Source: Treponema sp. (GTDB lineage: Bacteria > Spirochaetota > Spirochaetia > Treponematales > Treponemataceae). Taken from it: a stretch of 64,000 nt of DNA. Within the stretch, counting starts at the first letter, position 1. Each line of letters opens with the position of its first letter. The stretch is from positions 248,001 to 312,000 of the forward strand of contig JAEESN010000001.1 of NCBI GenBank assembly GCA_016286365.1. Direction: 5' to 3'. Under the pieces are notes generated by a model. It was not told the origin of the DNA. It saw only the letters and a program-made list of their open reading frames with translations, and searched no databases. The position numbers and the translations under genes were made by a program. This document shows positions 58,548 to 64,000 of the stretch, one piece after another.

Positions 58548-60158
58548 ATGGGTTTAAATAAAGACATTCACAAAGTAATGATTATCGGTTCAGGTCCTAT
58601 CATCATCGGACAGGCCGCAGAATTTGACTACGCAGGAAACCAGGCTTGTAAGGCTTTAAAACAGCTTGGTCTTGAAGTTTGTCTTGTAAACTCAAATCCT
58701 GCTACCTTTATGACAGATCATGAAATGGCTGATGAAATTTATATGGAACCCCTCAATCTCCGTACCCTTGAAAGAATCATAGAAAAAGAAAAACCTGATT
58801 CCCTTCTTTCGACTCTCGGTGGCCAGACTGGATTAACGCTCAGCATGGAGCTTGCAAAATCAGGATTTTTAAAAAGTCACAACGTACAGCTTTTAGGAGC
58901 AAGACCTGAAACAATCGATAAGGCAGAAGACCGCCAGATGTTCAAGGACACAATGCAAGCGATCGGAGAGCCGTGCATTCCTTCAAAAGTAGTAACAACT
59001 TACGAAGATGCAGTAGATTTTGTTCATAATGAAATAGGTTTTCCTGCCATCATCCGTCCTGCATTTACCCTTGGTGGAACAGGCGGTGGAATTGTAAACA
59101 ACGACCGTGAATTAGACGAAATTGCACACAACGGACTTCACCGCTCGCCTATTCATCAGATTCTTGTAGAAAAATGTATTTCGGGCTGGAAGGAAATTGA
59201 ATTCGAAGTTATCCGCGATTCTAATTCAAACGTAATCACTGTCTGCTCAATGGAAAACTTTGACCCGGTAGGAGTTCACACAGGAGATTCAATCGTAATT
59301 GCACCGGCTGTAACTCTTGCAGATAAAGAATATCAGATGCTTCGTTCTGCCGCCTTAAACATCATAAGCGCATTAAAAATAGAAGGTGGATGTAACTGCC
59401 AGTTTGCATTAAATCCTGATAGTTTTGAATATGCAGTAATCGAAGTAAATCCTCGTGTTTCACGATCCTCTGCCCTTGCAAGTAAGGCGACAGGTTATCC
59501 TATTGCAAAAGTTGCTGCTCTCATCGCTGTTGGTTTTACACTTGATGAAATTCCAAACTTTGTAACTAAAAAAACAAAGGCCTGTTTTGAACCGGTACTT
59601 GATTATGTAGTTGTAAAAATGCCTAAATTCCCGTTTGATAAATTCGTTTATGCACAAAGAAAGCTTGGTACACAGATGAAAGCAACCGGTGAAGTTATGG
59701 CAATAGGACAGAATTTTGAAGAAGCAATTCTAAAGGCTGCACGCGGTCTTGAAGTTGGTGTAAAGGATTTAAATCTCCCCGCTTTTGAAAAAGAAGGTGA
59801 TGAAAAAATCCGTGAACGTGTAAATCAGTGTACTGACCAGAGAATCTTTGCAATCTACCAGGCCCTTAAAAGAAATCTTTTGAGCATAGATGAAATTCAT
59901 AACATAACAAAAATTGATGAATGGTTCCTTGAAAAACTGGTAAAAATTGTCCAGATGGAAAAAGAACTTTCGAACCAATCAAGCAAGTCAAAGTCAAGCG
60001 ACAATGTTGTTTCGAAAAGTTCAACTACCGCAATGCTCTACCCTCCTCGCTCATTCAAAATGGTTGATACCTGTGCCGGAGAATTTAACGCAGAAACTCC
60101 ATACTTTTATTCAACTACAAATGGCGAAAACGAAGCAGAAATGTTCATAAATGAATAA
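58548..60158 (+). CDS. carB: carbamoyl phosphate synthase large subunit, N-terminal half only
   Basis: 536 aa against about 1070 for a full CarB. It contains the first ATP-grasp half: KVMIIGSGPIIIGQAAEFDY, LLSTLGGQTGLTLSMELA, RPAFTLGGTGGGIV, IEVNPRVSRSSALASKATGY. It ends after RSFKMVDTCAGEFNAETPYF then YSTTNGENE, the exact junction where the second half normally begins (IMVLGGGPNRIGQG). No second half follows in this window. The helical oligomerisation segment before that junction is replaced by a Ser/Lys-rich stretch encoded by an inverted repeat (59964-60022). No Shine-Dalgarno lies near the ATG; AGGAGG is 41 bp upstream, across a small hairpin. Confidence 0.9.
   Translation: MGLNKDIHKVMIIGSGPIIIGQAAEFDYAGNQACKALKQLGLEVCLVNSNPATFMTDHEMADEIYMEPLNLRTLERIIEKEKPDSLLSTLGGQTGLTLSMELAKSGFLKSHNVQLLGARPETIDKAEDRQMFKDTMQAIGEPCIPSKVVTTYEDAVDFVHNEIGFPAIIRPAFTLGGTGGGIVNNDRELDEIAHNGLHRSPIHQILVEKCISGWKEIEFEVIRDSNSNVITVCSMENFDPVGVHTGDSIVIAPAVTLADKEYQMLRSAALNIISALKIEGGCNCQFALNPDSFEYAVIEVNPRVSRSSALASKATGYPIAKVAALIAVGFTLDEIPNFVTKKTKACFEPVLDYVVVKMPKFPFDKFVYAQRKLGTQMKATGEVMAIGQNFEEAILKAARGLEVGVKDLNLPAFEKEGDEKIRERVNQCTDQRIFAIYQALKRNLLSIDEIHNITKIDEWFLEKLVKIVQMEKELSNQSSKSKSSDNVVSKSSTTAMLYPPRSFKMVDTCAGEFNAETPYFYSTTNGENEAEMFINE
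59964..60022 (+). repeat. inverted repeat inside carB
   Basis: GAACTTTCGAA (59964-59974) and TTCGAAAAGTTC (60011-60022) flank a Ser/Lys-coding core with AAGCAAGTCAAAGTCAAGC. It falls where CarB homologues carry helical sequence. Confidence 0.5.
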
Positions 60159-60252: not shown

Positions 60253-60324
60253 TACCTATTGACATAATAGGTAATAGACTGTATATTCTCATTATCAAGT
60301 AAATACCTATTAGTTTAGTAGGTA
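60253..60324 (+). promoter_or_regulatory. promoter with two palindromic operators
   Basis: TTGACA (60259-60264), 17-bp spacer, TATATT (60282-60287). TACCTATTgacatAATAGGTA (60253-60273) covers the -35, and TACCTATTagttTAGTAGGTA (60304-60324) lies just after the start point. Both arms share TACCTATT, so one dimeric repressor probably binds both. Regions 60159-60252 and 60436-60532 hold no gene. Confidence 0.75.
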
Positions 60325-60357
60325 ACTAATTTACAACCACATAACAAGGAGGCATAT

Positions 60358-60435
60358 ATGAAAATTTTCTTTCAAAAATTAGTTCGTGAAAATTTCCGAA
60401 ACGGAGTCATGTGCCTCTGTTGTCTCTCCGACTAA
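60358..60435 (+). CDS. Cys-rich leader peptide (25 aa)
   Basis: ACAAGGAGGCATAT precedes an ATG that opens 25 codons, beginning MKIFFQKLVRENF and ending MCLCCLSD then TAA. Three cysteine codons fall in four positions, just before the stop, the design of amino-acid-sensing leader peptides. The Cys stretch (TGCCTCTGTTG) is also complementary to the leader's own ribosome site (ACAAGGAGGCA), and GACCTCC further on is another possible partner. The peptide probably senses cysteine (charged tRNA) for the transporter operon 100 bp downstream. Confidence 0.65.
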   Translation: MKIFFQKLVRENFRNGVMCLCCLSD

Positions 60436-60532
60436 GCTGAAAGACCTCCAGCTATAAAACTTAATCAAACAAATAATAATCACAAAAAAAATCTGCAGGA
60501 AAAATAGTATGCAGAAAACATAAGGAGTAATT

Positions 60533-61519
60533 ATGTCTGAAAAAAGAGACTTAGTATTTAATGCTTTTAATAACAAACCTGTTGACCGTGTACCGGTTGG
60601 ATTCTGGTTTCATTACACACCGAACGAAATTCTTTCGGCTTATGATCATCCTGAATACCGTGACCTCAACATCAACGGACACAAAAACTTTGTAAAATCA
60701 TTCAAGCCTGATTTTGTAAAGCTTATGAGCGACGGATATTTCTTTGAACCGGAAACTGCAAAGCTTATCTCAAAAGCAAAAAAGGCTTCTGATTTAAGAA
60801 AGCTTGAACCTATTGCTGCAAACGATAAATGGATTAAAGACCAGGTATCGCTTGTAAAAAAACTTACTTCTTCTTTTGGAAACGAAGTTGCAACTTTCTA
60901 CAATGTCTTTGCACCAGCAACAGCATTCAAATGGTCAGCAGGAGGAGACAAAAAACTTGCAGCTTTCATTAAAGAAGATAAGGAAGCTGTAATCTATGCT
61001 CTTTCTGTAATAGCACAGAACACAGCAATTCTTGCACGCGAAGTAATCAAAACTGGAAAAGCCGATGGTATATACCTCAGCGTTCAGCAGATTCAGGATA
61101 TAAGCGTTGGTCCGGATCTTTATGCAGAAGTAATCACTCCATCTGAGCTTTCTGTACTCGTTTCTGCAAATGCAGCCGGAGGAACAAACATTCTCCACAT
61201 CTGCGGATACGAAGGTGCAAAAAACAACCTGGCAATTTTCAAAAACTATCCTGCAAAGGTAATCAACTTTGCTTCTGTTGTTGAAGGAATCTCCCTTAAA
61301 AAAGGTAAGGATATCTTTGGCGGAAAAGCAGTTATCGGTGGTTTTGAAAATACTAAGAAGGGTCTTCTTTACACAGGTTCAAAAGAAGATGTTCAGAAAG
61401 AAACTAAACGACTTATCAAAGAAGCCGGAAAGACAGGAATCATTCTTGGAGCCGATTGTACAGTTCCAAAGGATATCAGCTTTGACCGCTTTGAATGGGT
61501 TCGTGAAGCAGCAAAATAA
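60533..61519 (+). CDS. uroporphyrinogen decarboxylase-family protein
   Basis: 328 aa with the UroD/MtaA-type TIM barrel: KRDLVFNAFNNKPVDRVPVG then FWFHYT, PDFVKLMSDGYFF, ILHICGYEGAKNNLAIFKNY, GISLKKGKDIFGGKAVIGGF, GIILGADCTVPKDISFDRF. No other tetrapyrrole genes are near, and CmuA/MtaA-type relatives act in methyl or sulfur transfer, so a corrinoid or sulfur-compound role is more likely than heme synthesis. The HxCxx zinc motif of methyltransferases is partly matched by HICGYEG. TAAGGAGTAATT precedes the ATG. It is first in the transporter operon. Confidence 0.8.
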   Translation: MSEKRDLVFNAFNNKPVDRVPVGFWFHYTPNEILSAYDHPEYRDLNINGHKNFVKSFKPDFVKLMSDGYFFEPETAKLISKAKKASDLRKLEPIAANDKWIKDQVSLVKKLTSSFGNEVATFYNVFAPATAFKWSAGGDKKLAAFIKEDKEAVIYALSVIAQNTAILAREVIKTGKADGIYLSVQQIQDISVGPDLYAEVITPSELSVLVSANAAGGTNILHICGYEGAKNNLAIFKNYPAKVINFASVVEGISLKKGKDIFGGKAVIGGFENTKKGLLYTGSKEDVQKETKRLIKEAGKTGIILGADCTVPKDISFDRFEWVREAAK

Positions 61520-61568: not shown

Positions 61569-62402
61569 ATGAAATTAAACAAATCAGTAATCTTAATAGC
61601 AGGAATCTTAGCAGGAGTATCACTTTTCGGATGCTCTAAAAAATCAGAAGAAGGAAAAGTAACAAAAGTACGTGTTGCTCACACAAACTACTATGTTCCT
61701 TATGACTTTGTAAATGACAAGGGTGAATCAGACGGATTCGAAGTTGCAGTTCTTAAAGAAGTTGATAAGCTTCTTCCTGAATACGAATTTGAATACACAC
61801 CTACTTCAGATGATGATCTTCTTATTGGAGTTCTTCAGGGTAAATATGATTTTGGTACAAAGGGTGTCTGGATTACAGAAGAAAGAAAAAAGAAGTATGT
61901 ATTCCCTAAAAATCCAATCGGTGCCAGCATCATCGGTATTGTAATCAGAAGTGAAACTGCAAACGAAATCCATGATCTTCCTTCTTTTGCAAAATACTCT
62001 GGAAAGCTTGTTCCGATCGGAGCTGCTAACGCACAGTACGCTGTAGTAGAAGATTACAACAGAGAACATCCTGATGCACAGATTGACCTTATTGCAGGTG
62101 ACCAGTTTGGTGCTTCTGACGGTTACGTATGGGTAAACGAAGGACGTTACGATGCATTCTTCGACATCAAGCTTTCTTTCCAGAACAACGTATTAAAAGA
62201 CGGTGCTCCATATGCAGAATACAAAGATAAGCTTACATACATTCCTTACAAGGGAATCCCAACATGGCCTATCTTCAACAACAAGAAACAGGAACTTGCT
62301 GATGCATACGACAAAGCAATTGAAAAGCTCATTGCCGACGGAACAGTTTCCCGCCTTGCAATTGAATACTTTGGCGAAGATGTATCTGCTTTGCTTAAAT
62401 AA
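61569..62402 (+). CDS. polar amino-acid ABC transporter substrate-binding lipoprotein
   Basis: 277 aa. Lipobox GVSLFGCSKK. Family 3 binding-protein blocks: NYYVPYDFVNDKGESDGFEV, GVLQGKYDFGTKGVWITEER, LIADGTVSRLAIEYFGED. Together with the Cys-rich leader peptide and UroD-like gene, cystine or another sulfur amino acid is a reasonable ligand, but this is inferred. AAAGGAGTAAAAT precedes the ATG. Confidence 0.9.
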   Translation: MKLNKSVILIAGILAGVSLFGCSKKSEEGKVTKVRVAHTNYYVPYDFVNDKGESDGFEVAVLKEVDKLLPEYEFEYTPTSDDDLLIGVLQGKYDFGTKGVWITEERKKKYVFPKNPIGASIIGIVIRSETANEIHDLPSFAKYSGKLVPIGAANAQYAVVEDYNREHPDAQIDLIAGDQFGASDGYVWVNEGRYDAFFDIKLSFQNNVLKDGAPYAEYKDKLTYIPYKGIPTWPIFNNKKQELADAYDKAIEKLIADGTVSRLAIEYFGEDVSALLK

Positions 62403-62453: not shown

Positions 62454-63161
62454 ATGGACAGACCTTTTTATCCGGAGAAAATAATTTCGATAATTCCAGA
62501 GTTACTTCCATACCTTGGAGTTACTTTTGAAATCATGCTTGGAACAATTATAACAGGTCTTTTCCTTGGCTTTTTTCTTGCCAGGGGAAGACTTTCAAAA
62601 AAGAAGGTACCACGGAAAATTGCGGACTTTATTGTAAATGCTTTCCGTTGTACTCCAGCTATCGTAATGCTGTTCGTAATCTTTTACGGCCTTCCAAATC
62701 TTTTCTGGGCCATCTTTAAGATTGATATAAATGAATGGTCAAAAGGATTTTATGTAATCACCGCACTCGGACTTTTGTTCAGTGCAAGCGCATCGGAGAT
62801 AATGCGTTCAAGCTATCTTGCCGTTCCAGCAGGACAGAGAGAAGCAGCACTTACTTCAGGACTTTCGGAGAGTCAGGCGTTTACAAGAATCATGCTTCCG
62901 CAGGCGTTTTTAGTTTCCCTGCCGAATCTTGGTAACAGCGTAATTGCTTTACTAAAGGAAGGTTCCCTCGCCTTTACAATCGGACTTGTAGACGTAATGG
63001 GAAAAGGAAACCTTTTTATAAGCATGAATTTTGGTGCCTTTGCAGCAGAAACTTACATTGCACTGGCAATCATTTACTGGGTTCTGACAATTGTTATAGA
63101 ACAGATTTTTAAGTTTGCCGAAAAGAAATTTTCTAAAGGCAGAAAGGCAGTTTCTAAATAA
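62454..63161 (+). CDS. polar amino-acid ABC transporter permease
   Basis: 235 aa, HisM/GlnP type. N-terminal VTFEIMLGTIITGLFLGFFL, then FIVNAFRCTPAIVMLFVIFY, and the EAA loop AGQREAALTSGLSESQAFTR then IMLPQAF. About five spans. CCAAGGAGGAAAGCC precedes the ATG. It pairs with the next permease as a heterodimer. Confidence 0.92.
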   Translation: MDRPFYPEKIISIIPELLPYLGVTFEIMLGTIITGLFLGFFLARGRLSKKKVPRKIADFIVNAFRCTPAIVMLFVIFYGLPNLFWAIFKIDINEWSKGFYVITALGLLFSASASEIMRSSYLAVPAGQREAALTSGLSESQAFTRIMLPQAFLVSLPNLGNSVIALLKEGSLAFTIGLVDVMGKGNLFISMNFGAFAAETYIALAIIYWVLTIVIEQIFKFAEKKFSKGRKAVSK

Positions 63162-63175
63162 CTGAAGGAGATAAT

Positions 63176-63919
63176 ATGTTTGATTTTGGATATCTTACAA
63201 GAACTTTTCTGCTTTTATGGAAGGCTGTTCCGACAACACTGATTATTACTGTTGTATCTCTTGCAATAGGAAGTGTTTTAGGATTTTTTATTGCACTTGC
63301 ACGTGTAAATAAAATAAAGGTTTTGAGCCAGCTAGGCAGGGCTTATGTTTCTGTTATAAGGGGAACACCGGTAGTACTTCAGATTTTAGTTGTTTATTCG
63401 ATTGTTCCGTCTCTTTTGAATGTAATGTTCAAAAATGCCGGAAGCGACATAAATATTTTCGAGATGAATCCTATTGTCTATGCCTTTGTTGTTTTTTCAC
63501 TCAACATGGCAGGAACTCTCTCGGAGGTTTTCCGTTCCGCTATCCTTACTGTAAACCAGGGACAGCTCGAAGCGGGATACACAAGCGGCTTAACCTTTGC
63601 ACAAACTTACAGAAGGATAATTATTCCTCAGGCTCTGACAGCAGCAATTCCAAACCTTTGTAATGCAACAGTCAACCTGATTAAAAATACATCACTTGCT
63701 TTTATGATGACAGTAAAAGACATTACTGCAGTAGCAAAAATTGAAGCATCGTACGGATATAATTACCTTGAATCATATCTTGATATATTTGTGATTTATG
63801 TAATTATCTGTTCGATTGTTCAGTTTTTGTTCAAGAAATGGGAGAAAAAGAGTTCTGTGTTCAAACATGGTGTCACAGAAGAAAAGAATGCAAAGCCCGT
63901 GGCGGCTGTTCTTAAATAG
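63176..63919 (+). CDS. polar amino-acid ABC transporter permease
   Basis: 247 aa, same family as its neighbour: VPTTLIITVVSLAIGSVLGF, YVSVIRGTPVVLQILVVYSI, the EAA loop NQGQLEAGYTSGLTFAQTYR then RIIIPQAL. It starts 14 bp after the first permease (GAAGGAGATAAT). Confidence 0.92.
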   Translation: MFDFGYLTRTFLLLWKAVPTTLIITVVSLAIGSVLGFFIALARVNKIKVLSQLGRAYVSVIRGTPVVLQILVVYSIVPSLLNVMFKNAGSDINIFEMNPIVYAFVVFSLNMAGTLSEVFRSAILTVNQGQLEAGYTSGLTFAQTYRRIIIPQALTAAIPNLCNATVNLIKNTSLAFMMTVKDITAVAKIEASYGYNYLESYLDIFVIYVIICSIVQFLFKKWEKKSSVFKHGVTEEKNAKPVAAVLK

Positions 63920-63945: not shown

Positions 63946-64000
63946 ATGTTAAAGATAACTAACGTACATAAATCATTTGGTAAAAACGAAATATTAAAGG
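63946..64000 (+). CDS. ABC transporter ATP-binding protein (5' end only)
   Basis: 18 codons visible: MLKITNVHKSFGKNEILK, the standard start of polar amino-acid transporter ATPases (family of GlnQ/TcyN). ACAGGAGGAACAAAT precedes the ATG. The gene runs out of the window. Confidence 0.85.
   Translation, partial: MLKITNVHKSFGKNEILK

Follow-up and report, generated by a model that had tools for sequence, protein, structure and literature searches.

Cysteine leader peptides have been described for the cys operons of Mycobacterium, where polycysteine ORFs occur and no intrinsic terminator was found (PMC1262725), and control by CymR and CysK is known in Firmicutes (PMC2940859; PMC3828012). The Treponema locus described here resembles both systems in part, as well as TnaC, SecM and SpeFL. 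As with the mycobacterial leaders, a short ORF with Cys codons near its stop precedes cysteine genes and no intrinsic terminator was found, but it differs from them in its strong ribosome site, an invariant core of residues other than Cys that is shared by two phyla, a Cys tail that is optional and a promoter with paired operators. With TnaC, SecM and SpeFL it shares a core that is conserved as protein while its codons are free, with Arg, Gly and Met conserved near the likely peptidyl-transferase position, and immediate stops that are mostly UGA in clostridial leaders. Its sequence differs from theirs, Cys codons usually follow the core, and its arrest and ligand are putative. An Rrf2 gene beside cysK and sulfur genes as targets are also found in the CymR regulon of B. 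subtilis and S. aureus, but here the Rrf2 protein scores under the CymR cut-off, and a leader peptide is joined to paired ACCTAYT-N5-ARTAGGT operators. In Actinobacteria, putative leader peptides that precede sulfur transporters may have a similar V-x6-G-x-[LM]-C spacing.

The window, i.e. the whole stretch of 64,000 nt that was analysed, ends within the sulfur operon (Table 1). The first gene encodes a UroD-superfamily protein in which the combination of His-x-Cys and a C-terminal Cys is what we take to be the zinc-thiol signature that marks methyltransferases of the MtaA/CmuA type and not uroporphyrinogen decarboxylase; comparison of its sequence with solved structures gave no match. Since this Cys signature is combined with MetC-like and PatB-like lyases and with a binding protein whose best curated match, under cut-off, is cystine-binding, it is plausible that the operon's products import and degrade a sulfur amino acid or thioether, the predicted transport substrate. 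The carB gene is split in two: its N-terminal half (58548-60158) ends just before the operon and its C-terminal half (L005:8762-10345) starts after cysK-rrf2, with the entire sulfur cluster between them.

Table 1. Features of the leader locus and the sulfur operon (positions in the window unless prefixed L005).
Feature	Position	Strand	Remarks
Operator 1, 21-bp palindrome TACCTATTGACATAATAGGTA (= TACCTATT-GACAT-AATAGGTA)	60253..60273		Contains the -35 hexamer
Sigma-70-like promoter TTGACA-17-TATATT	60259..60287	+	Near-consensus, 11/12 consensus matches
Operator 2, 21-bp palindrome TACCTATTAGTTTAGTAGGTA	60304..60324		Downstream of the expected transcription start
Shine-Dalgarno AAGGAGG of the leader ORF	60346..60352	+	With the spacer, pairs as 5' strand with the Met-Cys codons
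Leader ORF MKIFFQKLVRENFRNGVMCLCCLSD, 25 codons and stop	60358..60435	+	Conserved, pN/pS 0.10
Met-Cys-Leu-Cys-Cys codons AUGUGCCUCUGUUGU	60409..60424	+	Pairs as 3' strand with the leader's ribosome site
Hairpin AGCUG...CAGCU directly after the leader stop	60435..60453	+	Relatives have a covarying form
UroD-superfamily protein, resembles MtaA/CmuA methyltransferases	60533..61519	+	His222-x-Cys224 and Cys in GADCT kept in relatives
Family 3 solute-binding lipoprotein	61569..62402	+	Best NCBIfam match cystine-binding protein, under cut-off
Amino-acid ABC permease	62454..63161	+	
Amino-acid ABC permease	63176..63919	+	
ABC ATPase gene, start	63946..64000	+	Operon runs on past the window
Operon continuation: MetC/CGL-like enzyme, PatB-like C-S lyase	L005:3946-7108		
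Operators, then cysK and rrf2	L005:7123-8580		Beyond the window, after the sulfur operon

Both operators are of one type, TACCTAttN5aaTAGGTA, and their centres are 51 bp apart. The original prediction had placed palindromes over the promoter and the start region, and this holds: the -35 lies in operator 1, and operator 2 follows ~10-30 bases beyond the expected transcription start. The window contains 8 copies of the half-site TACCTATT, versus 2.2 expected. In the whole 2.68-Mb genome there are only five perfect 17-bp CCTAYTN5ARTAGG sites, all in three sulfur promoters, namely those of the UroD-like/ABC operon (two), cysK-rrf2 (two) and O-acetylhomoserine sulfhydrylase (OAHS; one). The OAHS promoter has a second operator with one mismatch; one-mismatch palindromes elsewhere in the genome look like background. 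At least one operator site was present in 103/107 non-redundant Treponema leader promoters and two sites in 61/107, usually spaced 36-51 bp apart, versus 1.7% and 0% in shuffled sequences. Among clostridial leader loci, 38/72 had one site and 11/72 had two.

A search for these palindromes near an Rrf2-type regulator had been proposed, and Rrf2-family genes are indeed linked to both the operators and the sulfur genes of this small regulon. The cysK transcript also encodes, directly behind cysK, an Rrf2 protein (C31:316164; 91.6 bits against Pfam Rrf2) whose best NCBIfam match is CymR at 109.1 bits, far under the equivalog cut-off of 195. A second Rrf2 protein of another type is encoded at C21:18786 of the source genome, and the Rrf2 genes within leader-OAHS operons, in Treponema (L122, L124) as well as in Clostridia (L162, L192, L203, L236, L256, L260, L267), are relatives of this type and not of the cysK-linked one. 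The restriction of the palindromes to sulfur promoters, together with the linked Rrf2 genes, gives good support to a predicted Rrf2 repressor of the sulfur genes; either of the two Rrf2 proteins may bind the operators.

The second element of the promoter region is the leader peptide. The 25-codon frame with a strong ribosome site and a CLCC run was predicted correctly, but CLCC does not stand directly before the stop: the C-terminal end reads MCLCCLSD and three codons (LSD) intervene. Peptide scans against Pfam and NCBIfam, a literature search with the peptide strings, and an Rfam search of the leader region for RNA families, riboswitches and T-boxes all gave no match. Within the source genome, OAHS is also preceded by a sister leader, MKFYFEKLVRENFRNGVMRSCCLF, and in two other species the leaders MKFFFEKLVRENFRNGRMCLCCLFN and MKLFFEKLVRENFRNGRMCLCCLCN stand at the UroD loci. 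Conservation in relatives had been named beforehand as one of the points on which the proposal would stand or fall, and it is conserved in both Treponema and Clostridia. A profile search across 200 genomes of the genus found ~110 loci; outside the genus, copies occur in several other genera of the Treponemataceae and in a single distant genome of the phylum. Scanning public genomes for the pattern extended the family to Clostridia, with Oscillospiraceae, Lachnospiraceae and Christensenella among the matches listed, as are the cultured commensals T. saccharophilum and T. porcinum; the 73 clostridial loci that were read come from these listed matches, whose counts are lower bounds and whose taxonomic range is that of a sample. 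When the clostridial class was sampled evenly, 27/391 species had a match at E ≤ 0.001, although some of these matches are unconvincing.

The leader usually precedes OAHS, methionine/cystine transporters or cysK. The first gene after it in Treponema (n = 109) was OAHS in 65 cases, UroD in 10, MetQ in 9, LanC-like in 5, MetC in 4, CysK in 3 and MetN in 3, and in Clostridia (n = 67) OAHS in 55 and MetQ/MetN in 9. Several copies per genome, with differing tails, are common. LanC-like proteins that come first in leader-controlled operons (L062, L073, L083, L098, L105) are mostly followed by CysK. NifH-like and NifB-like genes were also found behind leader and operators (L075, L109, L043, L050, L081), some beside cysK, and they may encode a nitrogenase-like sulfur salvage enzyme.

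Members of the family are 20-25 residues long with an almost unchanging middle. The core FEKLVRxNFRxGxM is conserved at the protein level (pN/pS 0.10) although synonymous sites are near saturation and all six Arg codons are used. Since synonymous change is free throughout the core, it must be under selection at the level of the peptide. An amino-acid core conserved near a fixed C-terminal point is what is expected of an arrest peptide. One position behaves differently in Clostridia: 73/73 leaders (L162-L279) use CGA for the Arg that precedes the last Met, while CGA makes up only 2.2% of the Arg codons in the OAHS genes of the same loci. This invariance points to selection on the codon or the RNA exactly where a nascent-chain pause would lie. 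The clostridial run CGAATGTG is conserved even when it encodes a stop.

From the single sequence, the Cys codons had been proposed to pair with the ribosome site of the leader itself, and covariation in Treponema supports this. In the predicted fold (z -2.1 for this sequence alone), GAGGCAUAU (60349-60357) pairs with AUGUGCCUC (60409-60417), extended by AUAACA/UGUUGU. The pairing covaries over 77-95 distinct loci, and the cognate duplex energy is -14.8 versus -12.8 ± 0.25 (permutation sd) for swapped partners across 95 non-redundant loci, a comparison that covers Treponema only and treats related sequences as partly independent. One base of the spacer covaries with the first position of the codon that follows Met, the combinations being A-T in 21 cases, G-C in 15, G.T in 3 and A.C in 2. 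Pairing of the Cys region with the ribosome site of the downstream gene was considered as well and is weaker than with the leader's own site. In Clostridia, CGAAUGUG shows a weak enrichment of complementarity to the stretch before the OAHS ribosome site (ACATTC in 10/55 versus 1.6) that is confounded by relatedness.

Directly after the leader stop, about a third of the Treponema leaders have a hairpin, RRCTGAAAGWYCTTTAGYY, which occurs before unrelated genes. Its stem covaries (0.437 versus 0.183 ± 0.030, with 19 doubly changed cells), in a set that was picked by form and in which related sequences count as partly independent. No terminator-like site was found on the + strand between 60436 and 60532, and none conserved among relatives was seen by eye. 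Eight clostridial loci (L164, L173, L183, L197, L199, L210, L263, L277) have a terminator-like hairpin CCGGGAGACTTTATCGGAGTCTTCCGG with a U run between promoter and leader, which is possibly a further attenuator; those that were scanned gave no Rfam match at this hairpin. Rfam searches of 16 clostridial loci returned only two T-boxes (L170 1555-1810; L210 3317-3569) and a tRNA, and neither a T-box nor a riboswitch at the leader.

The pattern of conservation bears on how the leader may act. In plain Cys-codon attenuation, scarce Cys-tRNA would stall the ribosome at CLCC and the rest of the peptide would be irrelevant. The ORF does have an excess of codons for the regulated amino acid, as in a classical attenuator: Cys accounts for 37% of the residues in Treponema tails and 24% of those in clostridial tails, and it occurs in the tail of 104/110 Treponema leaders and in 52/53 non-empty clostridial tails. 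The leader's ribosome site is moreover a pairing partner of the Cys codons, and sulfur genes lie downstream. A classical attenuator would however conserve the regulatory codons and leave the rest free, and the reverse is seen here, with the core kept and the tail variable; nor was the terminator and antiterminator expected between leader and gene found in the window. Because 20/73 clostridial leaders stop directly after Met (21/73 lack a tail Cys altogether) and 6/110 Treponema tails are free of Cys, simple attenuation is an incomplete explanation and we consider it unlikely. The Cys codons noted in the original prediction are a common but optional tail to an invariant peptide core. If the core instead bound cysteine, O-acetylserine, O-acetylhomoserine or methionine in the exit tunnel, as a metabolite-sensing arrest peptide with a secondary Cys tail, its invariance across two phyla would be accounted for, and so would the leaders that lack tail Cys yet still precede OAHS and MetQ. 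The immediate clostridial stops are UGA in 18/20 cases, which is reminiscent of TnaC, a peptide that binds tryptophan, and of RF2. But the candidate ligands are hypothetical and the Cys-rich tail would need a separate reason, and on balance metabolite sensing by the core alone appears improbable too.

Conservation at the protein level would also fit a small functional protein that acts in trans, for example on the repressor or on CysK. However, the peptide is nearly always encoded directly upstream of sulfur genes, in multiple copies per genome with different tails, and the tail may be missing. Since a trans-acting peptide needs no copy at each target, we regard this as very unlikely. Lastly, the repressor alone could regulate and the leader could be a by-product of a conserved RNA or DNA sequence. 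Operators without a leader do exist, before cysK-rrf2 in the source genome and before UroD in L010 and L011, and the clostridial run mentioned above is kept even as a stop, but the free synonymous change across the core reveals selection on the peptide and makes this reading scarcely credible.

We therefore favour a model of two layers, to which we give about an even chance: an arrest-type pause of the nascent chain at Met18 and the next codon, gated by the supply of Cys or Met, behind an Rrf2 repressor. In the first layer, an Rrf2-family (CymR/IscR-like) repressor would bind the two palindromes over the -35 and the start region and shut the promoter when sulfur is sufficient. In the second, the core FEKLVRENFRNGxM would act in the exit tunnel and bring about a pause in which Met18 occupies the peptidyl site and the next codon is usually Cys, sometimes Arg or a UGA stop. 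The length of the pause would be set by the supply of Cys-tRNA (or Met-tRNA, or a sulfur metabolite). By covering the Met-Cys codons, the paused ribosome would keep them from pairing with the ribosome site of the leader, and it would alter the RNA behind it such that the downstream operon is expressed. The operators, the regulon, the conserved peptide and the covarying helix and hairpin are observed in the sequences; we infer the Rrf2 repression, the stall with its position and ligand, and the sign and mode of its effect, which may be on translation or on Rho-dependent transcription. The gap between leader and gene ranges from ~10 to 250 nt, in Treponema often with inserted repeats. Because this distance varies, a precise RNA switch at the ribosome site of the gene is unlikely in Treponema, which leaves room for Rho-dependent or stability effects. 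Of the two-level control by cysteine or sulfur state originally proposed, the dual control is thus well supported, whereas plain Cys-codon attenuation leaves the invariant core unexplained.

The leader family is apparently undescribed in Rfam, NCBIfam, Pfam and the literature searched, and what is new is the combination with operators, the invariant core and the two-phylum range. We tentatively propose a new class of arrest-type leader peptides, common to Spirochaetota and Clostridia, that senses a sulfur metabolite or the Met-Cys pair and spreads as a cassette with its paired-operator Rrf2 promoter; we regard this as possible rather than probable. To our knowledge, few leader peptides are conserved as protein across phyla, and each of them has taught how nascent chains control ribosomes. 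The family makes a sharp prediction, a pause at the invariant Met, which in Clostridia is preceded by the rare CGA codon. If the model is true, a pause at a Met-Cys pair would let one site read both sulfur amino acids, and sulfur state would be reported from inside the ribosome. Roughly 180 sulfur-gene loci with the leader were read, and many of them belong to bacteria of the rumen and gut. This suggests that two controls, a repressor and the ribosome's reading of a leader, act on the sulfur genes of gut spirochaetes and of many gut Clostridia, and sulfur-metabolising gut microbes would thereby gain a layer of control that is absent from the family libraries searched.
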